Source: a virus. From it: a stretch of 34,241 nucleotides of DNA. The notes under the pieces were generated by a model. That model saw only the letters and a list, made by a program, of their open reading frames with translations. It made no database searches and was not told where the DNA came from. The translations under genes were made by a program, and so were the position numbers. Positions within the stretch are counted from its first letter, which is position 1. Every line of letters begins with the position of its first letter. The stretch spans positions 1 through 34,241 of IMG/VR virus record IMGVR_UViG_3300032045_000001. One strand, given 5' to 3'. Of this stretch, positions 7,715-30,727 are shown piece after piece.

Positions 7715-9136
7715 ATGACGGTACTATCATCTACACCGGTTGCCCAGAAGGCTCCCCCTCCCGTGCCGGGGGGCGAGTGGGCACACGGTCCTCGAGGATT
7801 GTTCAGCCAACCTGCATTGGAGCGTCCTCTCTACTCGGCCGTTATCACCCCGTTTATCGGGCTGCAGAGTGTTCTCCCCGTTCGGGGGACAAACGTCACC
7901 GACCCCCTGTACGGGATTATCACCGGTGTCACCCCCACGACCGGGAATGAACCGGTTGGGGTGTGTGATGACCCGCCCACCGCAGGAGTTGTCAAGCTCT
8001 GCTCTCAGTACTACGTCTTCGGACGAGAATCTCGTCAGACGACCGTTCTTGACATCTCTCGGGGACAGCGGTTGACGTCTCGGGGGGAGCATACGGACTT
8101 CATCGTCTTCGGGACCCCCATGGGAATGGAGGGGAACCCTCTTGTCCCGTCTCTGGGGGCCCAATTCGGGGGGATTGCGAATGACGAGATGACCAAGCGG
8201 ATGGTCGAATGGATGGTTGCTTGGTCTCGAGACTTTGCCCGTGTGCTTTACATCGGTAACCCGTCAAACAACACGGCCGGGGGAGGGTATAAGGAGCCCT
8301 ACGGCCTTGACTTTATCTTGAACACGGGCCATCGAGATGCAGAGACCGGTCAGCTGTGTCCTGCGGCCGATCCGATCATCCGTTCGTTTGGGAATCGGAA
8401 CATTACGACAACCCCTGGAGCTGGGGCAGATCTTGTTCGCTTGATTTCGTACATCATGCGAAACCTCCACTGGAACGCGGCCAACATGAACCTCGCTCCC
8501 GTTGAGTGGGTCATGTCGATGCCGTTCGGGCTCTTCTATGAGCTGACGGAGATTTGGCCGATTGCCTACTCGACGTATCGGGCGAACAATATCCCGGCGG
8601 GGTCAACCCAGTTTGTCGACTCTATGGTCATCGAACGCATGAGAGACGAGATGCGGGGGGATCTCGGTCGTCGTGTTGGTCAATATCTCTTAGTTGATGG
8701 TCAGAGAATTCCCGTGATCCTCGATGATGCAATCGTTGAGACCTCTCTTTCGGATGCAGCATTCTCATCGAGTCTCTACATCATCCCACTCCGTGTCTTG
8801 GGGGGACGGGAGACGACCTTTATCGAGTATCTCAACTACAACACCCTGGGAGTGCTCCCCCTTGCAGCCGAGTTTGCTCCGGGAGGCTCGTTCACGGTCA
8901 CGGACAACGGTCGGTTCTTGATCCACCGGAAGCCCCCCACGAACTTCTGTACACAGATCGTGGGACTCACCGAGTGGCGTGTGGTCTGCCTGACCCCCCA
9001 CCTTGGTGCTAGGGTCACGAACATTGCATTCACACCACTGATCCATGAACGGTCTGGGTTCCCGGACAGCAACTACTTCGTTGACGGAGGAGTCACTCAG
9101 GGATACGCTCCGTCGTACTTCGGTCAGCCGGTCTAA
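7715..9136 (+). CDS. Major capsid protein
   Basis: The 473-aa protein follows the protease/scaffold gene, has a strong ribosome-binding site (CAGGAG, about seven bases before ATG 7715) and a balanced globular composition without transmembrane segments, as expected for an abundant HK97-fold capsid subunit. It is longer than a minimal HK97 capsid protein, so an insertion or extra domain is likely. The N-terminus (about 1-45) is proline-rich. The 72-base gap before it contains no clear promoter or terminator. Its stop overlaps the start of a small reading frame (TAATG). The assignment rests on position, length and character; I cannot name a close family. Confidence 0.8.
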   Translation: MTVLSSTPVAQKAPPPVPGGEWAHGPRGLFSQPALERPLYSAVITPFIGLQSVLPVRGTNVTDPLYGIITGVTPTTGNEPVGVCDDPPTAGVVKLCSQYYVFGRESRQTTVLDISRGQRLTSRGEHTDFIVFGTPMGMEGNPLVPSLGAQFGGIANDEMTKRMVEWMVAWSRDFARVLYIGNPSNNTAGGGYKEPYGLDFILNTGHRDAETGQLCPAADPIIRSFGNRNITTTPGAGADLVRLISYIMRNLHWNAANMNLAPVEWVMSMPFGLFYELTEIWPIAYSTYRANNIPAGSTQFVDSMVIERMRDEMRGDLGRRVGQYLLVDGQRIPVILDDAIVETSLSDAAFSSSLYIIPLRVLGGRETTFIEYLNYNTLGVLPLAAEFAPGGSFTVTDNGRFLIHRKPPTNFCTQIVGLTEWRVVCLTPHLGARVTNIAFTPLIHERSGFPDSNYFVDGGVTQGYAPSYFGQPV

Positions 9137-9312
9137 TGGAGCTGTCGAGCAACATCTTGATCATCGGGGGATGCTGGGACTGGGACGTGCCATTCTCATC
9201 GGGTGGTCGTTCCAGCTTACCGTCCCAGATTTGGTTGGGATTCTCCCCATTTGTCCTCAGATCCCCCGAGATCAATGCTTGTCTCTTGGAGTTGATGATG
9301 TATGTCAGCTGA
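9136..9312 (+). CDS. Small ORF between capsid and SDR genes (58 aa)
   Basis: The frame begins at an ATG overlapping the capsid stop (TAATG) and ends at 9312, overlapping the SDR start at 9302. The product starts MELSSNILIIGGCWDWDV and has no recognised domain. Perfect overlap at both ends and the lack of any other gene in these 165 bases argue that it is translated, perhaps only to carry ribosomes to the SDR gene, which lacks a strong ribosome-binding site of its own. The composition (Trp, Cys, Leu) is not typical of its neighbours, so it could also be a chance frame. Confidence 0.5.
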   Translation: MELSSNILIIGGCWDWDVPFSSGGRSSLPSQIWLGFSPFVLRSPEINACLLELMMYVS

Positions 9313-10057
9313 AGTAGACATCCAGGTGTTTGGGTCATCCGGGATGCTCGGGCAGTCTGTGATTCGAGCTCTTGAGCGTCGGGGGATTCGATATGAAGCA
9401 ACTCGGGGGGACATTCTCCTCCTCTCCGAGAGGGATATTCGAGCACCCACGGTGATCAACTGTGCGGGGATTACCCACCCGTCGGCCCTCCCGTCAACAC
9501 TGTTTGCGGTCAATACCGCGGGGTCTATCCATCTCAGTCGACTGTGTGACTCAGTTCGAAGTAGAGTTGTGTATATCTCAACGGATGCAATTTTCAGCTC
9601 TCCTGGGCCACACTTCGAGGATGACCCGCCGTCTCTGCAGACCGTGTATGCTCGGTCGAAATTGTACGGGGAGATTACTTACCCCCCACACGTGACCCTT
9701 CGAGGGTCCTTCGTGGGTCGGGAGAAGGGGGTAGTAGAAGACCTCCTCCAGGGGAAGGCGGTTCGGGTCAGCCGGAATGCGTTATGGTCTGGGATGTGGG
9801 TTGACGAGTTCGCCGAATTGATCGTAGACGTTGCTTGTCGTCCCGAGATTACCGGTCTCCTCCATGTCCCGGGACACGGGCAGAGTCGAATTGATCTCGT
9901 CACGTTCTTGAAGGGTCGGCTTCGAAGTCGAAGCCCATTGATCGTCGATGACACCGTTGTTTGGGACCGTCGTCTTCAGTCGCATTTCTGGTCATCGTAC
10001 GGCCTTCCCACCCCCGGACCTTTCTCAGAGCAGTTTGATCGTTGGGAGGGACGGTAA
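9302..10057 (+). CDS. RmlD-like sugar-nucleotide reductase/epimerase (extended SDR)
   Basis: The 251-aa product resembles dTDP-4-dehydrorhamnose reductase (RmlD) and related extended short-chain dehydrogenases that act on nucleotide sugars with NAD(P)H. It shows the dinucleotide-binding GSSGMLG (residues 11-17), the NCAGITHP strand (about 57-64), STDAIF (93-98) with the catalytic Thr position, and YxxxK (Y116, K120). The C-terminal part has the substrate-side GLLHVPG region. At 251 aa it is a little shorter than typical RmlD (about 290 aa). It stands next to a glycosyltransferase gene in the middle of the head operon, so it may supply or edit the sugar donor for virion glycosylation. The exact substrate cannot be read. 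Confidence 0.85.
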   Translation: MSAEVDIQVFGSSGMLGQSVIRALERRGIRYEATRGDILLLSERDIRAPTVINCAGITHPSALPSTLFAVNTAGSIHLSRLCDSVRSRVVYISTDAIFSSPGPHFEDDPPSLQTVYARSKLYGEITYPPHVTLRGSFVGREKGVVEDLLQGKAVRVSRNALWSGMWVDEFAELIVDVACRPEITGLLHVPGHGQSRIDLVTFLKGRLRSRSPLIVDDTVVWDRRLQSHFWSSYGLPTPGPFSEQFDRWEGR

Positions 10058-10093
10058 CGGTGACCACCCGTCATACATATATCACAGACGACT

Positions 10094-12814
10094 ATGAAGA
10101 TCTTCATCAATCCTACCTATGTTGGAGCTGACCAGGCTGACGGAGGGATTCGACGAGTTGTCGAAGCTCAGATCGAATTCTTCCCTCGCTTCGGTCATTC
10201 CGTGGTCTCGTCGGCCCGAGATGCTGATGTGATCATCAACCATGGGACTCTTCGAGCAGAATCACCGTCAGCCTTGATCATTGCCCACTGCCACGGGGCC
10301 TACTGGGAGGAGTATACCTGGCCCTCGTGGGCCCTCGAAGCGAACCGTCGAATTGCAGAGAATTTCGAGATTGCCGACCACCTGGTTGTTACATCTCGAT
10401 GGGTCCAACGAGCGATAGCTCGAGGGGTCTGCCTTCGCTCAACCGTTATCTACCACGGTGTCCGCCCAGAGGAGTGGGAGGTGCCCTCGTCTCCTGGGAG
10501 CTATCTCCTATGGAACAAATCTCGAACGGACCCTGTGGCGGACGACACGGTCGTTGCACAACTTGCTGTTCGACTCCCTAAACGGGAATTCGTCACCACC
10601 TTCTGCCCGAGACCCCTTCCCAACGTTCGACAGACCGGAACGATGTCGTACGGGGAGATGAAGAAGTTCGTCCAGCAGGCGGGGGTCTACCTTGCAACAA
10701 CTCGGGAGACCTTCGGGATCGGGACCCTCGAGGCTCTGGCTTCCGGGGTTCCCGTGGTGGGGTGGCGATTTGGTGGGCAAGAAGAGATCATCATCCCCGG
10801 GGAGACGGGGGAGCTGGTCGAGTATGGTGACTACGATGGCTTGGTCGAAGCAATCGAGAAGGTCTTTGCCCATCGGTCTCGTTACTCTCGAGCAGCACGT
10901 CAGGATGTCGAGTCTCGATGGGGTTGGGAAGACAAGATTGAGGCTTACTCTCAGCTCCTTGAAACGTTGTCACAACGCAGACATGGCCCGAAAGTCTCGG
11001 TAGTCATTACCAACTACAACCTCGGGCGGTTCTTGGGAGATGCAGTGTCATCGGTCCTTGAACAAGAATTCTCAGACCCTCGAGGGATTGAGTTGATCAT
11101 CGTTGATGATGGTTCGACGGACGAAGACTCTCTTGAAGTGTTGTCAGCTCTCGAACGTCGAGATGACATCACCGTCTACCGACTCCCCCAGAATGTCGGA
11201 CTTCCACTGGCACGGAACGTCGGGGCTTACCTAGCACACGGTGAGTACCTGATGTTCCTAGATGCTGACGACCTTCTCGAGAGATTCGCCATCCAGCGTT
11301 TGGTCGACGTACTTGATCGACATCGAAATCTCCACATCACCTACGGGGGGATTGACATCACGGATGAGACCCTCTCGTCCCGACGGCCTTCTCCTTGGCC
11401 AAGGGACTTCAGCTGGGTCCAACAGATGAGTCACCTCAACCAACTCCCGTATGCTGCATTGTGGCGTCGTGAGGCTTTCCTCTGGACCGGAGGGTATCGG
11501 GAGAGGGATTGGCGAGCAGAAGATGCAAGCCTGTGGTGTCGAGCTACATCGTACGGTCTTCGGGCTGCTCGAGGGACGGAGTCAACGACACTGATCTACC
11601 GTCTACGGAGAGACAGCAAGACACAGGTCGAACGTGCCATCTTCTCCGATTCCGACGGAGATTGGACGGCATGGTACCCCTGGAGGACCGGTGCAAGCAA
11701 TGCTCAGGAGGGGGAAAAGCTGGCCGATCCCAGACGAATCTCCCATGCTCTGGTCCCGTTCGGAGCTCCTCGACTCTCTAATCGTCCCTGGCCGATCCGT
11801 CACCTCCAAGAACCGGCAGTTTCGGTGATCATCCCGGTCGGTCCCGGACACGGGAGGTACCTGGTTGATTGTCTAGATAGCCTCTTAGCCCAGACTCTTC
11901 AACAGTGGGAAGCCATCGTGGTTGTCGACGGAGACCCGGTAGCAACCTCGGTCCTGCTCAACTACGTCTGGGCTGACGTTGTGGTCTTAGACAACCCCCC
12001 ACGGGGAGCGGGGAGGGCACGGAATGTGGGTATCAAACGTGCTCGAGCCCCCCTCCTCGTGTTCCTTGATGCAGATGACATCCTCCACCCTCGAGCTCTT
12101 GAACGATTCTTACAGGTGTACGTTGAGCATCAGGGGTATGTCTACAGTGATTGTCAATCCCCTCGAGATCCCAAGAAGCTGGATGGGGGGATGATCTACC
12201 ATCCAGCAGCTGACTATGATCGAAAACTGTTTTTGTCAAGTGGTTATCGTCTCGGGTCTCCGGGACGACATTCGGTAACTTGTCTTGTAGCTCGAGAAGA
12301 TGCCCTTGCCGTCGGGGGATTCGATGAAGACCTTGACAAACTTGAAGATTGGGAATTCTACCTTCGCCTGGCCGTCCACGGGGTCTGTGGGCATCGAATT
12401 CCAGAGCCTCTCTTGACATACCGGCTCCATACGGGAACTCGTCGCCCCGAATCCGGGACGACCCCGATTGAATTCAAGATCTTAGAAGAACGATATTCGT
12501 CGAAGGTTTCCGAGGGGGATATGCCGTGTTCATGTGGTTCAGGCGGAGACCGGGCTGTTTCCCGGGCCCGGATGGCACTGTCCGAGATCCAGTCTCAGGG
12601 GACTCAGACATCCAGGTCTGGGTTTTGGGAGGCAGATCCGGTCCTCTTAGAGTACGTCGGGGACCAATTTGCTCCAGTCGTTTTCCGTGGTCCCATCTCT
12701 CGTCGCTCGTACCGTGCTGGACGAGAACAGAGTTCTCGAATCGTCCAAGTTGATCCTCGAGACGTAGACGGTCTCCTACGTACGGGACAATTTGCGAGGT
12801 ACTCAAATGGCTAA
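10094..12814 (+). CDS. Three-domain glycosyltransferase (GT4-like + two GT2-like)
   Basis: The 906-aa protein joins three glycosyltransferase modules. Residues 1-295 are GT-B, GT4-like, with TRETFGIGTLEALASGVPVV and the donor-binding GGQEEII. Residues about 299-560 are GT2-like, starting KVSVVITNYNLG, with VDDGSTDE (D338, D339) and the metal-binding FLDADD (D390-D393). Residues about 575-800 are a second GT2-like domain, with VVDGD (610-614) and again FLDADD (D659-D662). The C-terminal 95 residues hold a CSCGSG motif (C812, C814) and a small unclassified domain. It lies 37 bases after the SDR gene, has only a weak ribosome-binding site, and is coupled to the next gene by overlap. Likely role: building a short glycan on capsid or tail protein; an action on the host surface is the alternative. 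Confidence 0.88.
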   Translation: MKIFINPTYVGADQADGGIRRVVEAQIEFFPRFGHSVVSSARDADVIINHGTLRAESPSALIIAHCHGAYWEEYTWPSWALEANRRIAENFEIADHLVVTSRWVQRAIARGVCLRSTVIYHGVRPEEWEVPSSPGSYLLWNKSRTDPVADDTVVAQLAVRLPKREFVTTFCPRPLPNVRQTGTMSYGEMKKFVQQAGVYLATTRETFGIGTLEALASGVPVVGWRFGGQEEIIIPGETGELVEYGDYDGLVEAIEKVFAHRSRYSRAARQDVESRWGWEDKIEAYSQLLETLSQRRHGPKVSVVITNYNLGRFLGDAVSSVLEQEFSDPRGIELIIVDDGSTDEDSLEVLSALERRDDITVYRLPQNVGLPLARNVGAYLAHGEYLMFLDADDLLERFAIQRLVDVLDRHRNLHITYGGIDITDETLSSRRPSPWPRDFSWVQQMSHLNQLPYAALWRREAFLWTGGYRERDWRAEDASLWCRATSYGLRAARGTESTTLIYRLRRDSKTQVERAIFSDSDGDWTAWYPWRTGASNAQEGEKLADPRRISHALVPFGAPRLSNRPWPIRHLQEPAVSVIIPVGPGHGRYLVDCLDSLLAQTLQQWEAIVVVDGDPVATSVLLNYVWADVVVLDNPPRGAGRARNVGIKRARAPLLVFLDADDILHPRALERFLQVYVEHQGYVYSDCQSPRDPKKLDGGMIYHPAADYDRKLFLSSGYRLGSPGRHSVTCLVAREDALAVGGFDEDLDKLEDWEFYLRLAVHGVCGHRIPEPLLTYRLHTGTRRPESGTTPIEFKILEERYSSKVSEGDMPCSCGSGGDRAVSRARMALSEIQSQGTQTSRSGFWEADPVLLEYVGDQFAPVVFRGPISRRSYRAGREQSSRIVQVDPRDVDGLLRTGQFARYSNG

Positions 12815-13082
12815 CTTCTTGATTCGAGTTCTCGCGACTTGGAGGCTGACGTCGATGATCACCGACGAGGAGGGGCCATTCGGTATCTTCTCGTCTATTC
12901 GACAAGCCTTAGGGGGTGAGTCTCAGAAGACCTGGTTGGGTCGTGGGATTGTCTGCCACTGGTGTGTCTCGATATGGGTGAGTGGGTTGCTCAATGCTGA
13001 TCATGATCTACGGGACATTCTTGCCATCTCTGCAGGTTCGATCATTCTTGACGAGCTCCTTGCCCGGAGGTTGATGAGATGA
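12807..13082 (+). CDS. DUF1360-like small phage protein (91 aa)
   Basis: The protein begins MANFLIRVLATWRLTSMI, continues with DEEGPFGIFSSIR, and has a CHWCVSIWVSGLL segment followed by a hydrophobic helix. This pattern (an N-terminal helix with ATWRLT, a DxxGPF motif, then CxxCxSxW) matches the DUF1360 family of small phage and bacterial proteins as I recall it. Function in the family is unknown. The Cys pair may bind metal and one membrane-inserting helix is possible. Start ATG 12807 overlaps the end of the glycosyltransferase gene, with GAGG upstream; its stop overlaps the next start (ATGA). Confidence 0.65.
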   Translation: MANFLIRVLATWRLTSMITDEEGPFGIFSSIRQALGGESQKTWLGRGIVCHWCVSIWVSGLLNADHDLRDILAISAGSIILDELLARRLMR

Positions 13083-14293
13083 CACCACCCACTCTTGTCA
13101 CACTGGAAGAGCTTCGAGAGTTCCTCGACTGGAACCCGTTCCACTTCTGGGGTCTCTCCGACCAAGAGGCTCTTCGAGTGACATCAGCTTGTGACCCTCG
13201 AGTATTCCAATTCAGCTATCAATCTCCCGGGAGTCGACTGTTGGGTCGGGCAGAGATTCTTCGAGCAATCTCTTCGGCGGAGGAGAAGCTCGAAGACTAC
13301 CTCGGATTTTCTGTTGCTCCCAGATATCGAGAAGTCACCCTCTCGTGGCCTCGTCTTCGGGACCGTCGCCTCCAGCACCACGGGTCGGTGGGGGTGGACG
13401 GCCGCTGGAGGTCTCTCCAACTCCCTGGAGGGTACGTCCAAGCGGTTGGTCAAGAGACCTTCACCCCGGTGGTCGAAGGTGTCCCGATCTCCTGGAGGGA
13501 TCAAGACGGTGATGGGTATCTCGATACCGGGGTTGTCGGTCCGATCACGACGTCGCTCCCTCCATCCGAACTCTGCATCATCTTTTCTGAGAGTGAGAGG
13601 TATGACTCGTCACAACCCCTGGAGACGTGGGAGATTCGGCCTAAGACCGTCTACTCCTCGGGGACCGGGGTGACCATCTCATTTCGACGATGGCTTGCGG
13701 TCAAGCCCAGAAGGTACCAAGGTATTTTACCCTTGTCCCTTGACCCCCAAGACCCATCAATTTTCCCGGTCACCGTCGATGTCTACCGACGGTGGATCGA
13801 CCCGGATCGTCAAGGGCTCGTATTCTGGGACTCTCGACCAGCCCCCGGATCCGACCCGGTCGGGGTGTTCGCTGAGCAGATTCGAGTTGGGATCCATGAC
13901 CCTGTCGTCGGGGTGGTTACCGTGGCTCCTGCAAGGTACGATGCTGAGTCGAGTCGGTGGGCATCCCTTCTGGGAAGACCTGAGCCCGATCGAGTATTCA
14001 TCCGATACCTTGCTGGCTTCCCCCGAGATTCCCACGGTCGAGTAGCTTCGTCTCTTCGAGAGGCCGTAATCCTCTTGGCCATCGCAGAAATGATCCGTCC
14101 AATCTGTGGGTGTGACGAAGCCAATCGGATTCTGTACCACTGGCAGTTCGACCTAGCCCGGACCACGGGAGCAGATGCACAGTTTGCAATCTCAACAAAA
14201 GCTCTGCAAAACCCGTTCGGGACCCGTCGGGGGCACGTGGCCGCCTGGGAGAGGGTCGAATCGTTGAGACGTACATCATCAATCCTCGTGTAA
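13079..14293 (+). CDS. Head-tail connector/neck protein (probable)
   Basis: The 404-aa protein sits between the head and tail-tube genes where adaptor and stopper proteins are encoded. The N-terminal third (residues 1-100) has helices around AISSAEEKLEDYLGFSVAP, similar in style to gp6-like head-tail adaptors. It is followed by beta-rich sequence including DQDGDGYLDTG (about 141-151), an EF-hand-like calcium loop also seen in other phage neck proteins. The C-terminal helical part (REAVILLAIAEMIRPICGCD, about 320-345) closes it. It is much longer than a minimal adaptor (about 100-150 aa), so adaptor and stopper or neck functions may be merged. Start ATG 13079 overlaps the preceding stop. No direct catalytic motif is seen. 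Confidence 0.6.
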   Translation: MTPPTLVTLEELREFLDWNPFHFWGLSDQEALRVTSACDPRVFQFSYQSPGSRLLGRAEILRAISSAEEKLEDYLGFSVAPRYREVTLSWPRLRDRRLQHHGSVGVDGRWRSLQLPGGYVQAVGQETFTPVVEGVPISWRDQDGDGYLDTGVVGPITTSLPPSELCIIFSESERYDSSQPLETWEIRPKTVYSSGTGVTISFRRWLAVKPRRYQGILPLSLDPQDPSIFPVTVDVYRRWIDPDRQGLVFWDSRPAPGSDPVGVFAEQIRVGIHDPVVGVVTVAPARYDAESSRWASLLGRPEPDRVFIRYLAGFPRDSHGRVASSLREAVILLAIAEMIRPICGCDEANRILYHWQFDLARTTGADAQFAISTKALQNPFGTRRGHVAAWERVESLRRTSSILV

Positions 14294-14303
14294 GGAGATT
14301 GAC

Positions 14304-15854
14304 ATGCCCAACAACCCTGAAGCCGATGAAATCATAATGCAACGTCAGCTGAGGGCGTACACCCAACGTGGGGGCCCTCGACCGGATGCTCCCGTGAGGT
14401 ACGGTGGAGTCAACGAACAGTTTATCATGTTCGGGGACGTCACCAATGCTCAGCGAGGCTCCTTCACTCCCGTGTGGTGGGTTGACCCATTAGCTCGAGA
14501 CAGGTACCGGCTGATCGCACAACAGGTCTCACCCCCCGAAACTCCGAAAGCAACAATCTCTTTCGCTCGACGTCGAGGAGGGATTTCCTGGATTGTCGGA
14601 GATCTCAGCTGCCCGGTGAATTTCTACGAACAAGCGTTGGGCTGCGGTGCTGCAGGAGACTTCCTCTACGGCTGGTCCGACTTCCTTACGATCTACAGCA
14701 AGGGTCTTGCCGGGTCTCGGTCGAGTAAGTCTCGATCAACCCGAGTCGATGATAACCCTCTGATGGATGATGTTGAGTTCTCGTTCTCAGCAATCTATGA
14801 CATCGGGGGACTTTCGTTCCGAGAAGTTGCAGGGACAGCGATTGAACGAAAAGTTGTTGATGTGGCCTTTGCGCCAGGTGGTGCCTGTTCGAACTGTGGA
14901 ACTCCCTCCGATGGGACGACTCGTCTATATGCCCTGATAGCTTCGTCTGGGTCTGGGTCTCCCGGGATCCCTGCAAAAGTCGTGTGGACCGTTGATGGGA
15001 TAACCTTCAACGACGTGAATATCACGGGGTTGGGGGGGACGGTGACCCCGACAGGGATTGACATCGTTGGGAACTTTGTCGTAGTCATCGATACTGTCAA
15101 CAAGGGGTACTGGTATTCAGAGATTGACCGCTGGACGGGAGCACCGACCAGCTGGGCCTTCGTCTCTGCAGGGTTTGATGCGGATTCTCCCCCGACGGAT
15201 ATCTTCGTGGCGGGCCCGAACGAAGTCTACTTCTCAGCCCACGGGGGGTACATCTACCGCTCTCGAAACATCCCGGTTGGTGTGACCCCGATCTATTCGG
15301 GGAGTGCAACGGCTGAGCCCCTGACACGGATCGCCGGACATGGCTCGACCCTGGTTGCTGTGGGGGAGGTTGGGACAATCCTACGATCCATGGATAGGGG
15401 GAGTACTTGGACGAGGATATTCTCACCGACAGGCGGGAACATCACTGCTGTCCAAGTCCTCGACCACTTCCTCTACTGGATCGGGGACGAGGCCGGGGGT
15501 GTCTGGTGGACGGCACAGGGAGGTCAATCGTGGAACTCCCTAACTCTCCCGTCGGTCCGGGCGGTGGACGACATCCTCTTCGTGACGGATGAAGTGGGAT
15601 ACCTCCTTGCTCGAGCACCGAACCTTACCACAGCTCGTCTCTGGACCACGTTCAACGGTGGAGCCGACTGGAGTGCATCAAACATCGAAGGGAATCCTCG
15701 AATCTTGAACTTCCCGGCCTTCTCTCGAGGGACCCGCCTGGCGGCCCCACGAGGAGTCCCGGAGGTGACAGCAGCGAACCATCTTGCAATCGGGGGTCTC
15801 AGTGCAGACGGGGTCGATGGTCGTCTCTATATTGGCTCTGCGAATGTGATCTAA
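14304..15854 (+). CDS. Major tail (tube) protein with beta-propeller extension
   Basis: The 516-aa protein has its own strong ribosome-binding site (AAGGAG, seven bases before the ATG), as for an abundant structural protein, and lies just before the tail chaperones. Residues 1-175 look like a tube domain. From about 175 to 470 there are repeats with the BNR/Ycf48-like propeller pattern: GTILRSMDRGSTWTRI, GGVWWTAQGGQSWNSL, and RLWTTFNGGADWSASN, each with the characteristic (G/S)xxW. The C-terminus ends with short repeats (GLSADGVDGRLYIGSA). The propeller would project from the outside of the tail tube and could bind glycans or host surfaces. It is followed by hairpin 15873-15918, which may reduce downstream expression relative to this gene. 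Confidence 0.75.
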   Translation: MPNNPEADEIIMQRQLRAYTQRGGPRPDAPVRYGGVNEQFIMFGDVTNAQRGSFTPVWWVDPLARDRYRLIAQQVSPPETPKATISFARRRGGISWIVGDLSCPVNFYEQALGCGAAGDFLYGWSDFLTIYSKGLAGSRSSKSRSTRVDDNPLMDDVEFSFSAIYDIGGLSFREVAGTAIERKVVDVAFAPGGACSNCGTPSDGTTRLYALIASSGSGSPGIPAKVVWTVDGITFNDVNITGLGGTVTPTGIDIVGNFVVVIDTVNKGYWYSEIDRWTGAPTSWAFVSAGFDADSPPTDIFVAGPNEVYFSAHGGYIYRSRNIPVGVTPIYSGSATAEPLTRIAGHGSTLVAVGEVGTILRSMDRGSTWTRIFSPTGGNITAVQVLDHFLYWIGDEAGGVWWTAQGGQSWNSLTLPSVRAVDDILFVTDEVGYLLARAPNLTTARLWTTFNGGADWSASNIEGNPRILNFPAFSRGTRLAAPRGVPEVTAANHLAIGGLSADGVDGRLYIGSANVI

Positions 15855-15872
15855 GGGTCTACTCTGAAGTGA

Positions 15873-15918
15873 AGTCTGCTAGTCTCCCCATACCTTGGAT
15901 AGGGGAGACAAGCAGACT
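15873..15918 (+). promoter_or_regulatory. Hairpin element, copy A (perfect-stem version)
   Basis: An outer stem AGTCTGCT (15873-15880) pairs with AGCAGACT (15911-15918), and an inner stem GTCTCCCC (15882-15889) pairs with GGGGAGAC (15902-15909), interrupted by one A/A mismatch. The loop (TACCTTGG core) and 3' inner arm are shared with copies B-D at 25971, 27142 and 27216. There is no T-run, so a simple intrinsic terminator is unlikely; RNA processing, factor-dependent termination or protein binding are possible. It lies between the tail tube gene and the chaperone start. Confidence 0.85.
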
Positions 15919-16672: not shown

Positions 16673-19346
16673 AGTCGGTATAGAACTCGTCGTACATGGT
16701 CTCTCGGAGTACCTCTCAGGGCTCAGGAAAGGGACTGAGGCCGTCCAGGGGTTTGGTGATACCGTCTCGCGTCAGTCATCGAAGATTGACGGATTTCGAG
16801 AGATTACAATCGGAGCCCTTCGTCAAATTGGAGCTCTCAGTGTCGAACTTCTCGGGTCAGCAGCCTCATCGTTCATTGACCTCAGTCGAAGTGGCTTCGA
16901 GGCCGTCAAGTCCTACGAGACACTCTCGAAGTCACTCGAGGCCCTAACTGCACGAGAACTCCTCAGAGCCGGGGCCGCCAAGGACATGACAGAGGCCATG
17001 GAGATGGCGATCCCGGTTGCACAGGAGAATATCCGATGGCTCGAGCGGCTGGCAATCATATCTCCGTACGAGGCAGAAGACATCGCCGGAGCCTTTCGAC
17101 TGGGTGCTGCATTGGGGTTCACCTCTGACCAGTTGAAAGAGCTCATTTCTCGAACGGTTGACTGGGGAGCGGCCACGGGACAATCGGGGGCAGCAATTGA
17201 ACGAGTGATGCTTGCCCTCGGTCAAATGAATACCAAGGGCAAAACGACCGGAGAAGAGATGCTCCAACTGGTCGAAGCAGGTGTCTCGGCCTGGGACTAC
17301 CTTGCCCAAGCTCTCGGCACGACTACACAACAAGCACAAGAACTGGTCTCAAAGGGGCTGGTCCCAGCAGAGTTTACTATTCAAGCCATCGCTAGTGGGC
17401 TGGGGTATGATTTCCGGGGAGCTGCAGAAGCTTCGGCGGAAACCCTCCAGGGATTGACTAGTTCGATCAGAGACCTTGCCAATCGGGCCCTTCGAGAAGC
17501 CTTTACTCCAGCCCTACAGGCGATCCAGCCATACCTTGTCCAGCTTGTTGACCTCTTGGGCAGTCCTGCTTTCTTGTCGACCGTCTCCGCCATCGGGTCT
17601 TCGGTCGGGGTATTCGCGAAGCGAATACTCGAACTTGCTGAGGGGATTGCCACGGCACAGGACCCTCTTCAAGCTCTACTTGACGTCGTCTCCCTCCTCC
17701 ACCCCGTGTTGGGGTTGGTCATCAAATCTGCTGTCGAGATCATTTCATATTTCATCGAAATGGCCTCCGGGGGAGACCAGGTCCATCAATCTCTATCCAA
17801 CCTCCCCCGACCAATTCAAGCTGTAGTTGGTGTCCTGGGTCAGCTGATCTCTTGGATCGGAGACACGATCCAGGTCTTCAAGGATGCCGAAGACTCACAT
17901 CAGAGTTGGGCAGGGGTTGTCTCTCAGGCTGCATCAACGGTTCGGGACGTGTCTCGGGCAGTGTCGGACTTCCTCCAAACGGTCTTTACCTTTATCGGAG
18001 ATTTCATTCGAGACCATGGGTCGGACATCTCAGGAACGTTAGTAACTGCCTGGCAACAAATTGCCGAGATCATTACCCTGACTCTCCGAATTGTCCAAAC
18101 GGTTGTTACATCGGTGCTTGACGGAGTCACGTCATTCATTCGATCGAACCAAGGGGGGATCACGTCGATCATCCGCACCGCCTGGGATGTCATCTCTACC
18201 GTCATCCTTGAGGCACTGACGTTGATCGAAGGGGTCTTGACGGCTACCCTCCTGGTGATCCAGGGGGATTGGCGTGGGGCCTGGGATGCTATTATCTCAG
18301 CAACACGCAACCTCCCCCGACCGATCCAAGCTGTAGTTGACGTCCTGGGTCAGCTGATCTCTTGGATCTGGGACACGATCCAAGTCTTCAGGGATGCTGA
18401 AGACTCACATCAGAGTTGGGCAGAAGTTGTCTCTCAGGCTGCATCAACGGTTCGGGCTGTCGTCCAAGCGGTGTCGAACTTCCTCCAAACGGTCTTTACC
18501 TTTATCGGAGATTTCATTCGAGACCATGGGTCGGAAATCTCGGAAACGTTAGTACCTCTCTGGCAACAAATTGCCGAGATCATTACCCTGGCTCTTGAGA
18601 TTGTCCAAACGGTTGTTACATTGGTCCTTGGGGAAATCTCGTCATTCATTCGGTCGAACCAAGGGGAGATCACAACGATTATACGCGCCGCTTGGGGGGT
18701 CATCTCTAGCGTCATTCTTGCGGCCTTGACGTTGATCAAGGGGATCCTGACAGTTGTCCTTCGGGTGATCCAGGGGGATTGGTCTGGAGCCTGGGATGCT
18801 ATCGTCTCAACAACATACGAAGTTGTGTCATGGATCGAATCAGCACTCACCAGTCTTCGCCCCGTGGTTGAGTCCGCCTTCCGAGCTGCGACCAGGGCTG
18901 TCAGGCAGGTCTGGGACGGTCTCGTTCGAGAGGCCGGGTCTCTGGGTCGTCGTCTTGTCGAAGGGGTCGCCGACGGGGTACACAAGACCGGGTCATGGCT
19001 GGCCGAACAAGTTCGAGCCGCTCTCCAATGGGCCCTCGACGAAGCAAAAGCTAGGTTGGGGATCCGGTCACCGTCTCGGTACACTGCTCAAATCTTGGGA
19101 GTCCCCCTAGCAGAAGGGATTGCCCAAGGGATCTTGGAGACTCAAGCAGTAGTCTCTCGAGCACTTCAGAGAGTGATGGTCGACTCAACCCGAGACTTGA
19201 ACGTGTCAAGGTCGTCAAGTATCGAGCAGTCGTATACGTCGAACGTCTCGTATACCTACAACTATGCTCCAACCTACATGGGAGGGGCTCCACCGGTTGA
19301 TGTGTCATTTGACGTAATCCGACTTTCTCTCGCAGGAGGGTATTGA
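16659..19346 (+). CDS. Tape measure protein
   Basis: The 895-aa protein sets tail length and is threaded through the tube. It has an N-terminal domain with SPYEAEDIAGAFRLGAALG (about 145-163) and MNTKGKTTGEEMLQLVEAGV (about 190-210), typical of tape measure N-terminal modules. A long helical body follows with hydrophobic segments (about 310-375), then two tandem 170-residue repeats (about 381-720), and a C-terminal helical region with RLGIRSPSRYTAQILG, the usual closing motif (RSPS) of tape measure proteins. At about 0.15 nm per residue the tail would be roughly 130 nm, minus any removed part. Start ATG 16659 overlaps the previous gene; the stop overlaps the next start (TGATG). Confidence 0.93.
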   Translation: MALPKVGIELVVHGLSEYLSGLRKGTEAVQGFGDTVSRQSSKIDGFREITIGALRQIGALSVELLGSAASSFIDLSRSGFEAVKSYETLSKSLEALTARELLRAGAAKDMTEAMEMAIPVAQENIRWLERLAIISPYEAEDIAGAFRLGAALGFTSDQLKELISRTVDWGAATGQSGAAIERVMLALGQMNTKGKTTGEEMLQLVEAGVSAWDYLAQALGTTTQQAQELVSKGLVPAEFTIQAIASGLGYDFRGAAEASAETLQGLTSSIRDLANRALREAFTPALQAIQPYLVQLVDLLGSPAFLSTVSAIGSSVGVFAKRILELAEGIATAQDPLQALLDVVSLLHPVLGLVIKSAVEIISYFIEMASGGDQVHQSLSNLPRPIQAVVGVLGQLISWIGDTIQVFKDAEDSHQSWAGVVSQAASTVRDVSRAVSDFLQTVFTFIGDFIRDHGSDISGTLVTAWQQIAEIITLTLRIVQTVVTSVLDGVTSFIRSNQGGITSIIRTAWDVISTVILEALTLIEGVLTATLLVIQGDWRGAWDAIISATRNLPRPIQAVVDVLGQLISWIWDTIQVFRDAEDSHQSWAEVVSQAASTVRAVVQAVSNFLQTVFTFIGDFIRDHGSEISETLVPLWQQIAEIITLALEIVQTVVTLVLGEISSFIRSNQGEITTIIRAAWGVISSVILAALTLIKGILTVVLRVIQGDWSGAWDAIVSTTYEVVSWIESALTSLRPVVESAFRAATRAVRQVWDGLVREAGSLGRRLVEGVADGVHKTGSWLAEQVRAALQWALDEAKARLGIRSPSRYTAQILGVPLAEGIAQGILETQAVVSRALQRVMVDSTRDLNVSRSSSIEQSYTSNVSYTYNYAPTYMGGAPPVDVSFDVIRLSLAGGY
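17799..18818 (+). repeat. 510-bp tandem duplication inside the tape measure gene
   Basis: Units 17799-18308 and 18309-18818 align without length change (170 codons) and are highly similar, starting AACCTCCCCCGACC in both. Both encode LPRPIQAVV.VLGQLISW, then DAEDSHQSWA, then FTFIGDFIRDHGS. Several long identical stretches indicate a fairly recent duplication or continuing gene conversion. It would lengthen the tail by about 25 nm. Confidence 0.92.
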
Positions 19347-25945: not shown

Positions 25946-26039
25946 CGCTTACCTCCGGTCAATTTTTGGGTGAAGTCTGCTGTTCTACCTATACCTTGGA
26001 TAGGGGAGACTAGCAGACTTCATCGCTTACCTCCGGTCA
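25941..26039. repeat. 21-bp direct repeat flanking hairpin copy B
   Basis: The 21 bases at 25941-25961 recur exactly at 26019-26039. On the minus strand each copy reads GGAGGTAAGCGATGAA at its core. In the right copy this encodes the last codons and TGA stop of the DUF932 gene; in the left copy it gives the ribosome-binding site and ATG of the next gene. The ancestral junction was probably a single ATGA overlap that has been duplicated around the hairpin. Confidence 0.9.
25971..26022 (-). promoter_or_regulatory. Hairpin element, copy B
   Basis: TGAAGTCTGCT (25971-25981) pairs perfectly with AGCAGACTTCA (26012-26022). The inner arm pairs imperfectly, unlike copy A. On the minus strand the first three bases of the element (TGA) form the stop codon of the DUF932 gene. 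It separates that gene from 25945-25646 and could attenuate, or be a processing site between the two. No T-run follows. Confidence 0.85.
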
Positions 26040-27101: not shown

Positions 27102-27141
27102 GAGCCAATTTCGAGTGATTTCACCCAATTTTCACCACAAC

Positions 27142-27193
27142 TGAAGTCTGCTGTTCTACCTATACCTTGGATAGGGGAGATTAGCAGACTTCA
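27142..27193 (-). promoter_or_regulatory. Hairpin element, copy C
   Basis: TGAAGTCTGCT (27142-27152) pairs with AGCAGACTTCA (27183-27193). The loop and inner arms are as in copy B, with a single C/T change at 27181. It forms a tandem pair with copy D and lies between the end of the long minus operon and the DUF932 promoter, which suggests reading-through prevention or RNA end formation. Confidence 0.85.
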
Positions 27194-27215
27194 TCGCAAC
27201 CCCCACGGGGATGGG

Positions 27216-27267
27216 TGAAGTCTGCTGTTCTACCTATACCTTGGGTAGGGGAGATTAGCAGACTTCA
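27216..27267 (-). promoter_or_regulatory. Hairpin element, copy D
   Basis: TGAAGTCTGCT (27216-27226) pairs with AGCAGACTTCA (27257-27267). The loop has one G instead of A compared with copy C. The TGA stop codon of the CxxCGxCC gene is the first three bases of the element on the minus strand. Copies C and D share the sequence downstream of the stem up to the next element's start, so they look like a tandem duplication. Confidence 0.85.
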
Positions 27268-27993: not shown

Positions 27994-28622
27994 ACTTCAC
28001 CTCCCTCACCTCCCTCACCTCGATAGACAAGATAGCTGGGCGGGGCTGTTCGATACGTATCCTCGTCCCAGTCGGGCCAGGTGAGACGTTCAACAGGACC
28101 GATCTTGAGACCGAGGAACAGGACCGGGAGGCTACGCCAAGATCGAAGACGAGCTCCCCGCCAGGACCACGTGTACCCGTACCGATCCTCGTTGGTGAAG
28201 CAAACAGCCCGTTCCCGGGGGACTCTTGACAAAACATCCGGGCAGTCATCAATCCAGTAGTCGACGGACACCAATTCCTTGGCTTCTGTAGATACGACGG
28301 GACACTGGGGGAAATATGTCGACAGCCACTTCATCTTTGCATCGTACGTCCCCGGCCAAACACGAGTGATGATGGTAGGGTTGAACCCGAGAAGATGGAG
28401 GGCAAGGACGGCATCCACTGCCCAGGGGAGAGGTCGAGTGGACCGAAAGAGGCGGGGAGTGAGATAGTCGTAGATCTTCTCTCCGCATCGAACATACCGG
28501 TGGATCTCGTACGTTAGAATCTTCTCGGGAGTGATGTTGTCATCGTAGTCTCGGTTGTACTTCGACAACCACACGTCGAGAAGGTTCGACAACGTTGAGT
28601 CACAGTCAATCCCGATTCTCAT
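27990..28622 (-). CDS. 5'-nucleotidase-like HAD phosphatase (NT5C-like)
   Basis: The 210-aa protein begins MRIGIDCDSTL, the HAD nucleophile motif DxDxT (D6, D8). Later there is PTIITRVWPG (about 90-99), the second HAD motif, and VDYWIDDCPDV (about 125-135), the acidic third motif. This order and size fit the 5'(3')-deoxyribonucleotidase-like (NT5C) group, which removes phosphate from nucleoside monophosphates. In phages such enzymes can change nucleotide pools. I start at ATG 28622, with GGGGGGAAG upstream, because the longer frame lacks the motif at its N-terminus. It overlaps the previous gene by 17 bases and the next by the ATGA overlap. Confidence 0.78.
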   Translation of the reverse strand: MRIGIDCDSTLSNLLDVWLSKYNRDYDDNITPEKILTYEIHRYVRCGEKIYDYLTPRLFRSTRPLPWAVDAVLALHLLGFNPTIITRVWPGTYDAKMKWLSTYFPQCPVVSTEAKELVSVDYWIDDCPDVLSRVPRERAVCFTNEDRYGYTWSWRGARLRSWRSLPVLFLGLKIGPVERLTWPDWDEDTYRTAPPSYLVYRGEGGEGGEV

Positions 28623-29526
28623 GCTTCCCCCCGTAGACCGTGGTAAAGACGTACGAATGGATGACTTCGTGGACAAATCGACGCTTCCGAGACCCAAGCC
28701 CGGGAGCTCCTCCGTCGTACGTCCCAAGATTGAGATACCGAATCCCTCGAGAGACAAGATCCTCACAGGCCAAGAAGAGGTTGGCATCAGAAGTCCCCGG
28801 ACGACCCCCGGGCATCTGTGAATAGTTCAGCGACTTCTCGACCGCCTGGATCCCGTGTCCGGGGGCCCCCGGGTGCGGGAAGATGATCTGGGTACATACC
28901 GGGACTCCACCCCGCATTCCCAGATAGTGGTAGCCGTAGGGCCACCGATTAGATACGTAGTCTCGAACGATTGAGAGACGAAAGTGGCGATGGCCGAGGA
29001 ACGACTTCCACGTAGAGATGACCGAATCGACTTCAGGAGACCCGGGGTCAACGAGTGAATACACCATTTCTCGGCGATCCCGACGAAGATACGTCAAAGC
29101 TCGAGAGTTGAAGAACCGATCGGGGGAACGGACAATATCCTCGGTTGAGACAAGGATCTCCTCCGAGACCTTCAACGACCCTTGTGGGTGGAGGTCGAGG
29201 AGCTCTTGGGCTGTCTCACGATCGATGTTATTGATGGTGACCGGCCGAGCTGATCGAGCCCCGTATTCACCGGCGATCTCGAGAAGGTCGGGAGCAGTCC
29301 CCCGAAGAGCCCAGAGACGAAATCGAGGGGCTGATGAATACCGCTGAAGGACGACACAGAGAGGGTCAACCGAACGCCAGACGAGACTCCCCTGATCACG
29401 AGCCATCTCGTAGCATCGAAGGGTGTCAGGAGAGTTGTAGAAATTCGGTCGAGGGTGAACCTGTTGACACCACCATGATCGAGGGGGGAGCCCAGGAGGG
29501 AAGTCATCAAGAGTCTCGAGGGACAT
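28606..29526 (-). CDS. GNAT-like protein B, paralogue of the next upstream gene
   Basis: The 306-aa protein shares its C-terminal third with the upstream neighbour: LNYSQMPGGRPGTSDANLF, then GIRYLNLGTYDGGAPGLGS and KRRFVHE. The order (LNY, PGG, then YLN, DGG, GL, K(R)RF) resembles GNAT-fold or DUF2156/FemAB-type acyl- or aminoacyl-transferases, where such a segment closes the substrate pocket. I cannot name the acceptor. Start is ATG 29526, with AAGGAGG seven bases upstream. It overlaps its paralogue by 20 bases and the nucleotidase by 17. Confidence 0.6.
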   Translation of the reverse strand: MSLETLDDFPPGLPPRSWWCQQVHPRPNFYNSPDTLRCYEMARDQGSLVWRSVDPLCVVLQRYSSAPRFRLWALRGTAPDLLEIAGEYGARSARPVTINNIDRETAQELLDLHPQGSLKVSEEILVSTEDIVRSPDRFFNSRALTYLRRDRREMVYSLVDPGSPEVDSVISTWKSFLGHRHFRLSIVRDYVSNRWPYGYHYLGMRGGVPVCTQIIFPHPGAPGHGIQAVEKSLNYSQMPGGRPGTSDANLFLACEDLVSRGIRYLNLGTYDGGAPGLGSRKRRFVHEVIHSYVFTTVYGGKHENRD

Positions 29527-30727
29527 AGAACGCCTCCTTCGAGATGACACGGGGTGTCCGCTGACACTCGCCGAATGTGAATCGACTTTTGTGGGTTCGA
29601 AGACCATCTGTGCCTCCATCAATTGAACCAGCATTGAGATACCGAACTCCTCGATCTCGAAGACATTCAAACTCCTTGACGGTAGACCAATCCGAGACCC
29701 CGGGCTTCCCCCCGGGCATCGATGTATAGTTCAAGCCCTTTGAGACAATCTCGAATGCATAGGTCGGGTCTCGAGGCCAACGCTCAGCAAGGATCACCGA
29801 CACGGGGAAGTTGTCCCGGACACCCAAGAACCACTCTTTCGGGGCGGGACTCTCGAGAGCAAGGTAGTCTCGAACCACGGCCAGCTGACGCTGTTTGGGT
29901 TCGTTGAATTCTCGCCAGATGTCGACAACTCTCCGAGACAACTCCACGTCGGGGTCTCGGAGAAAGCACTCTCGCTCCCGTGCCCGGAGTTGACGAAGCC
30001 CTCGGGAGTTGAATACCTCGAAGAGATTCGACAATACTCGATCAAGATCGTAAACGGCTTCCCGCTCAGTCATGACGACACCGGGGGAGAGTTGGCAGAA
30101 TTCCTGGGCCTCACGGTCCTGTAGACCGAAGATAGTCACGGCCCTCAAACTCACCGAAGAGACCCGAACGACAAGATCTCGAAGATCCTGGAGAGACCCT
30201 GAGACGTAGACTACCTGCCATCGGGGCTTCTCTCGAAACCGACGGACCAGGATTGCCGAGAGGGTCGAGGTTCGAACCCAGAATGCTTCTCGCCGTGAAA
30301 TGAGGTAGGACCATACGACAAGCCACGAGATTGAGTGAGGGAGTGGTCCCGAAAAGTCTCGGGAAGATTGATCTTGATAGAAGGTCTCCCAGTCGGTTGA
30401 CAAGACCCGAGGGAGTGATTGAAGCTCGTCAAGAACTCTCAAACGATCATCGGGCCAGTATCGAATAGATTCTCGAGTGTCGTCTCGAGGTTCCCAACCG
30501 GTGATTTGATAGGTACTGGTAGGCCCACGACCGTGTTGACGGACAAGATACCCCATCGATCGAAGACAACCGACAAAGTTCATCCGCTCGATCTCAGGGT
30601 TTGCCCGAGGGTTGAGGTGGACAAGGTTCTCGAGGTCCTTCTGAGAGACCCCCTGGAACAAAGCTTGAATTGATGGGCGGTACACTTCTCCCATCTGGGA
30701 GACAACTTGATCAACTGTCAGCTCCAT
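29507..30727 (-). CDS. GNAT-like protein A, with an N-terminal winged-helix-like region
   Basis: The 406-aa protein is the longer of the two paralogues. Its C-terminal half has KGLNYTSMPGGKPGVSDWST, then GVRYLNAGSIDGGTDGL and HKSRFTFGE, matching the neighbour's motif order. Residues 1-85 are extra, helical, and include QALFQGVSQKDLENLVHL followed by FVGCLRSMGYLVRQHG, which could be a small winged helix. The central part resembles the other paralogue too (region with REEREAVYDLDRVLSNLF and NSRGLRQL). Start ATG 30727 has GAGGTG upstream. Both proteins may be acyl- or aminoacyl-transferases; acceptor unknown. Duplication followed by divergence is likely. Confidence 0.6.
   Translation of the reverse strand: MELTVDQVVSQMGEVYRPSIQALFQGVSQKDLENLVHLNPRANPEIERMNFVGCLRSMGYLVRQHGRGPTSTYQITGWEPRDDTRESIRYWPDDRLRVLDELQSLPRVLSTDWETFYQDQSSRDFSGPLPHSISWLVVWSYLISRREAFWVRTSTLSAILVRRFREKPRWQVVYVSGSLQDLRDLVVRVSSVSLRAVTIFGLQDREAQEFCQLSPGVVMTEREAVYDLDRVLSNLFEVFNSRGLRQLRARERECFLRDPDVELSRRVVDIWREFNEPKQRQLAVVRDYLALESPAPKEWFLGVRDNFPVSVILAERWPRDPTYAFEIVSKGLNYTSMPGGKPGVSDWSTVKEFECLRDRGVRYLNAGSIDGGTDGLRTHKSRFTFGECQRTPRVISKEAFYVPRDS

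Follow-up and report, generated by a model that had tools for sequence, protein, structure and literature searches.

We find that a multi-domain glycosyltransferase (GT) gene set between the major capsid protein (MCP) gene and a connector-like gene is, by genome comparison, the standing arrangement of a whole lineage of uncultured tailed viruses (siphophages), and that two products probably arise from this gene, the complete enzyme and its free C-terminal domain of about 97 amino acids. The main interest lies in this lineage-wide glycan locus and its dual-start GT, rather than in the SDR reductase that accompanies it in the DNA examined here. We give a probability of roughly 0.55 to the reading that the locus is a virion-glycosylation module residing in the head operon, with the C-terminal domain made both fused and free. 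These phages would then diversify their particle surface as bacteria do their capsules.

A constant gene order around a variable sugar cassette

The DNA analysed, called the window, is the 34,241-bp virus record IMGVR_UViG_3300032045_000001 of IMG/VR. Its locus consists of the following features.

7715-9136, + strand: MCP gene, 473 aa, marking where the glycan locus is bounded on the left; follows the portal/prohead genes and is named from gene order
9136-9312, + strand: remnant of a 309-aa PseB/FnlA-like dehydratase gene, by alignment to L003 2696-3625
9302-10057, + strand: RmlD-like SDR reductase, 251 aa, probably orphaned (Pfam 1e-14; PDB RmlD matches)
10057-10058, + strand: deletion junction, with 5.6 kb of L003 missing from the window and CGGT microhomology (blastn)
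10094-12814, + strand: GT4-GT2-GT2 protein, 906 aa
10094-10963, + strand: GT4 module, GT aa 1-290
10988-11593, + strand: first GT2 module, GT aa 299-500, DxD and ED motifs invariant
11813-12463, + strand: second GT2 module (GT2b), GT aa 574-790, the one retained by minimal relatives
12512-12518, + strand: Shine-Dalgarno-like GAGGGGG 5' of the internal start, weakest among the loci compared (-6.4 kcal/mol)
12521-12814, + strand: C-terminal domain of the GT, 97 aa, with its own in-frame internal ATG, conserved in 41 loci
12807-13082, + strand: DUF1360 small protein with hydrophobic segments, overlapping the GT stop (Pfam DUF1360 5e-5), a neighbour in nearly all loci
13079-14293, + strand: head-tail connector-like gene, 404 aa, bounding the locus on the right (weak PHROG head-tail adaptor match; conserved order)
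14304-15854, + strand: tail-tube-like protein with a BNR/Vps10 propeller, a candidate acceptor only

The flanking genes were judged to be capsid and connector from the conserved order and the weak head-tail adaptor match; the MCP of the window has no match in Pfam or PHROG, and its HMM family takes in 53 open reading frames across the loci with the order unchanged. A reading made earlier from the sequence alone (the sequence-only reading) had described the SDR and the GT as two genes interrupting the capsid-connector order. Both open reading frames are present between capsid and connector at 9302-10057 and 10094-12814, and the interval also holds the remnant of a third gene, the dehydratase, and a deletion junction. 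A scan for promoters and terminators from the MCP to the tube gene gave nothing above chance, so that co-transcription of the SDR and GT genes with the virion genes is plausible; their placement in the head operon is borne out by the conserved gene order.

Searching IMG/VR with a capsid alignment, the window's own near-copies excluded, yielded 20 contigs, several of them closely related to one another, and a member of the GT family lies downstream of the MCP in all 20 (L016 and L026 were completed later, L016 by inference across contig ends). A search with the GT gave 35 loci. Copies of the GT are also found on contigs of metagenome bins, namely a Zixibacteria bin, two bins with one contig type in common and a Methanothrix bin, whose host assignments may be wrong. 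Save for occasional extra genes, the order MCP, variable genes, GT, DUF1360, connector, tube with BNR propeller and next gene is constant, and the location that had been called notable is thus no one-off but is shared by the whole lineage. The DUF1360 neighbour looks membrane-associated, an observation that would also suit a surface target. Among cultured phages, the MCP, connector and DUF1360 proteins of the relatives have no match, and for the GT no match reaches 80% coverage.

The interval between MCP and GT ranges from -61 to 8832 bp (32 loci) and holds SDRs, PseB/FnlA-like dehydratases, GT2s, C- and O-methyltransferases, DegT aminotransferases, GHMP kinases, a PIG-L deacetylase and a formyltransferase; the 137 cassette proteins include at least 32 SDR/epimerases, while 23 match Polysacc_synt_2 and 22 match GT2. 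GT identity tracks connector identity (rho 0.74) and tube identity (0.68), so that this soluble, phage-encoded enzyme behaves like a vertically inherited structural gene and travels with the virion genes; its correlation with the MCP is moderate (0.36), a point against the virion-glycosylation reading.

A question is whether such a locus serves the host surface instead, with host polysaccharide altered during infection or lysogeny, as in superinfection exclusion or serotype conversion, and the head operon meaning late expression only. The cassette genes resemble O-antigen and capsule genes, the GT matches PHROG families named GtrB-like O-antigen conversion, and the membrane-like DUF1360 protein follows it directly. 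However, where lysogenic O-antigen conversion (gtrABC) employs a membrane flippase and a membrane-anchored GT, 47 of 48 GTs of this family have no membrane segment, nor do 189 of 192 cassette proteins (three have), no flippase or polymerase is among the cassette families listed, and no lipid-carrier transferase is seen among GTs or cassettes. The invariant position of the locus, the tracking of connector and tube by the GT, and the conserved start owned by the C-terminal domain also argue against a host-surface role, which we consider unlikely.

The glycosyltransferase and the internal start of its C-terminal domain

The 906-aa protein had been read as one GT4-like and two GT2-like modules, each GT2 with its own DAD motif, and this assignment is upheld by Pfam and by conservation of the catalytic residues. 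Glycos_transf_1 matches residues 177-266 and Glycos_transf_2 matches twice (E 2e-45). The GT4 module carries the EX7E motif as E205-x7-E213 and each GT2 module carries DxD and ED motifs (D390-D392 and E476-D477 in the first, D659-D661 and E751 in the second); all are invariant or nearly so across 34 homologues, the middle residue of the first DAD motif differing in one relative. The AlphaFold model of the whole chain has a pLDDT of 89.5 and a pTM of 0.87. Given that two minimal relatives (L017 and L019) keep only GT2b and the C-terminal domain, the fusion of these two appears to be the core unit, around which the other modules came and went.

The C-terminal domain is present in all complete GTs. 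It opens with M-(small)-C-x-C, followed by a variable linker and then a conserved core with the consensus xxLEYxGxxxG...G...xYRFG......VxxxDv..F, and AlphaFold2 predicts a confident small core (residues 40-93, pLDDT ~88) of four strands, a helix and a strand. A fold search with the domain gave no match at E<=0.001, the best being an uncharacterised phage protein at 0.01, and a search of cultured phages with three family members and the consensus gave nothing significant; a Pfam/PHROG scan of 39 members returned only HhH tails, single weak matches and one DUF7196 at 0.07. The domain with its CSCGSG, which the sequence-only reading had left unclassified, thus has no significant family or fold match. 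A zinc ribbon at CSCGSG is unlikely in a monomer, there being only two conserved cysteines. Some members carry added HhH or HeH-like tails (HeH judged by eye), and in L011 the domain occurs once more, as a separate gene product encoded directly after the GT.

The in-frame start of the domain, which did not figure in the sequence-only reading, is ATG in all loci except L040, where it is TTG, and a Shine-Dalgarno-like match lies 4-14 nt upstream of it in 39/39 GTs. The duplex energy there averages -9.28 kcal/mol, compared with -2.99 kcal/mol at 634 other internal methionines (p 3e-23). In a dereplicated set of 31 loci (GT identity below 60%, plus one short form) the values are -9.23 and -2.94 kcal/mol (p 5e-19), and the internal start has the strongest match among all methionines of the gene in 20 of the 31. 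Relative to the codons, the motif occupies each of the three frames (14, 13 and 12 cases) and so is no by-product of a conserved peptide, and synonymous resampling gives p 2e-6. The internal methionine is followed in every case by A, G, P, S, T or C, all of which methionine aminopeptidase accepts as second residue. Two loci fetched afterwards fit the pattern, with -10.3 and -9.6 kcal/mol. No in-frame stop separates GT from domain in 41/41 loci (L004 has a frameshift further upstream in the GT), so that fusion and free form both seem to be kept. A predicted ribosome-binding site and a start at the domain boundary are conserved across 41 loci, as in a two-product gene. In the window the motif is weaker than in any other locus of the set and does not exceed what the codons alone would give (percentile 0.44), and the internal start there is accordingly assigned from the family.

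It is conceivable, if improbable, that only the C-terminal domain, as a head protein, is conserved, that the GT and the sugar genes are morons acquired repeatedly at a permissive site, and that the internal start is a relic of fusion kept for a needed small protein. The reduction of L017 and L019 to GT2b and domain, the eroded cassette of the window and an MCP-GT4 correlation (0.28) weaker than that of MCP and GT2b (0.52) would suit such a history, but the unbroken frame between GT and domain in every locus, the three catalytic sites invariant in 34 GTs and a low dN/dS speak against it.

The SDR and the deletions in the window

The SDR scores 54.6 bits against RmlD_sub_bind (PF04321; cut-off 27, E 1e-14), and alignments to 2ggs and 4wpg reveal the glycine-rich Rossmann motif FGSSGMLG, STD and YARSK (YxxxK), as in RmlD-like SDRs. 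In the pathway that pairs PseB/FnlA with an RmlD-like reductase, a UDP-GlcNAc 4,6-dehydratase acts first and a 4-ketoreductase follows. Eleven relatives carry an orthologue of the window SDR and all 11 possess another SDR as well, mostly a PseB/FnlA-like dehydratase close upstream; the window alone is without one, retaining the reductase beside a dehydratase remnant. The proposal of a dedicated SDR is hence not supported; in the relatives the enzyme comes with a partner that the window lost.

By alignment, the window is a deletion derivative. Its nearest relative, contig 3300031567_000022 (L003/L006), is 94-97% identical, with DNA identity of 88-93% across the greater part of what the two share. 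L003 holds, from the capsid gene to the corresponding GT, the 309-aa PseB/FnlA-like dehydratase, the SDR, a GT2, a C-methyltransferase (matching Methyltransf_13/23/14), three virion-like genes of 249, 516 and 121 aa (the last PHROG 1084) and a second GT2. Everything from the first GT2 to the second is absent from the window, where positions 10056/10058 correspond to L003 4369/9965 with CGGT on both sides. The dehydratase remnant retains the start, the first ~63 bp and the 3' end; the middle is deleted (junction 9198/9275) and frameshifted, leaving a 58-codon frame still open that overlaps the SDR start. An assembly artefact was considered; against it, a second IMG/VR contig, L002, is 100% identical over 16.6 kb, although L002 may share the window's sample.

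Because the dehydratase is wrecked, the interval between SDR and GT is deleted and a second SDR accompanies the orthologue in 11/11 relatives, the window SDR is probably a leftover. Its dN/dS of ~0.10 relative to L003 indicates slow evolution, which may mostly date from before the deletion. Since the sugar-making part has decayed, the remaining GT of the window probably draws on sugars of the host or on fewer kinds of donor. The loss of dehydratase and methyltransferase counts against the virion-glycosylation reading.

Proposed virion glycosylation and comparison with known systems

In the virion-glycosylation reading, the swappable genes between capsid and GT would make and tailor nucleotide sugars, and the constant GT4-GT2-GT2 protein would build a short glycan on a cytoplasmic acceptor. 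Such an acceptor is likely, given that the enzymes are soluble and that no export machinery is seen among GTs and cassettes, and virion proteins would be the obvious one, with those of the capsid or tail of the growing particle as the likeliest; the tracking of connector and tube by the GT is in keeping with this, as are the virion-like genes within the L003 cassette. In many siphophages a small gene is located between capsid and connector, and because the C-terminal domain sits at this position it may attach to the head during assembly and carry the GT there. The domain would be made twice, fused to the GT and free from the internal start, and its free copies would probably form an oligomer with the fused one or be held on the growing head, thereby docking the enzyme. 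That it attaches the enzyme to assembly intermediates had been suggested before; the domain is indeed a separate conserved unit that could dock, while the docking itself we infer. Thus the observations of the sequence-only reading stood, and of its interpretation the location in the head operon, the soluble multi-module enzyme, the virion acceptor as likeliest and the distinct domain were supported, whereas the dedicated SDR and the one-off location were not.

A bolder version, which we hold only tentatively and would bet against, is that the lineage switches its own virion "serotype" through cassette swaps beside the capsid gene, and that a capsid-assembly domain of the GT, also made on its own from the internal start, docks the enzyme on the growing particle and confines its activity there. 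Glycosylation of modified phage-DNA bases that blocks restriction is very improbable: there are phage GTs that act on DNA (Pyle et al. 2024, cited through PMC12619734), but no base hydroxymethylase or related gene is seen in window or cassettes, the genes lie in the head operon, and C-methylated deoxysugar pathways fit a surface glycan better.

Virion glycosylation has been shown in a few mycobacteriophages, while in most cases it is deduced from scattered GT genes; here a one-site glycan locus with near-modular sugar content would occupy the head operon across a whole uncultured lineage. In mycobacteriophages Che8 and Rita (Freeman et al. 2023, as relayed in PMC11256854 and PMC12619734) the GTs are likewise phage-encoded, and the proposed outcome is shared, glycan attached to subunits of the capsid and the tail tube. 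In the F1 phage Maravista, as PMC11256854 describes it, the genome carries its GT genes close to the 3' end, unlike the three-module GT with its dual-start C-terminal domain and sugar-synthesis cassette between MCP and connector. The best PDB matches of the GT model, E. coli K4 chondroitin polymerase (2z87) and Pasteurella heparosan synthase 2 (8vh7), have global TM scores of only 0.2-0.35; they too have two GT2 domains per chain, to which the phage enzyme adds an N-terminal GT4 and the phage C-terminal domain, and polymer synthesis is not implied.

For the dual start, the nearest parallels are single-gene two-component endolysins, in which an in-frame internal start gives a shorter product, as in Ms6 LysA (PMC3111421) and CTP1L (PMC4777826). 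In LysIME-EF1 an internal ribosome-binding site conserved in 36 homologues yields free binding domains, and the tetramer consists of one full-length chain and three of these domains (PMC7098653); by analogy free C-terminal domains may oligomerise with one GT chain. A conserved internal start that would give a free domain offers a simple test of how an enzyme might be linked to virion assembly. The domains and the role differ from those of the endolysins, the protein here being a glycosyltransferase whose dual product is predicted from sequence.

Sugar genes and virion-like genes in the relatives

Two related loci carry sugar or virion-like genes at these places:
L007 3658-4656, extra NAD-dependent epimerase gene, between the portal and prohead genes
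L003 6220-9330, three virion-like genes with products of 249, 516 and 121 aa, within the sugar cassette

Given the position of the L007 epimerase gene, the head module also takes in sugar genes elsewhere. The 516-aa protein of L003, the nearest relative of the window, contains repeated 'SGTLSSSG' units. In L004, the second GT2 module of the glycosyltransferase is frameshifted at about 5018, either a sequencing error or real decay.

Duplications and repeats in the window

The tape-measure gene holds a tandem duplication of ~510 bp (17798-18815; copies 87% identical) that is missing from L003, the proteins measuring 895 aa and 719 aa, respectively; the duplication suggests an altered tail length. 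Two further features of the window are:
25970-26022, 27139-27193, 27215-27267 and about 15869-15918, ~50-bp repeat
28606-29670 and 29507-30727, minus strand, neighbouring paralogous proteins

The ~50-bp copies, scattered intergenically with 82-90% identity, are possibly a common promoter or regulatory site. Both paralogues share SMPGG.PG.SD...GIRYLN.G..DGG-like motifs and look like acyltransferase-type enzymes.

A promoter and CRISPR-like repeat in L003

One segment separates the glycosyltransferase and DUF1360 genes of L003 and is lacking at the corresponding point of the window, 12795:
L003 12736-12806, promoter and CRISPR-like repeat

The promoter is strong and sigma-70-like (TTGACC-17-TATAAT, 11/12), and downstream of it lies a single CRISPR-like repeat, GTCGCCCTCTCAGGGGCGTGGATTGAAAC, scoring 23.6 bits against Rfam CRISPR-DR9, under the cut-off. 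Solitary repeat units have been described as RNA anti-CRISPRs (PMC10651486), and the L003 promoter with its repeat is a candidate unit of this kind.
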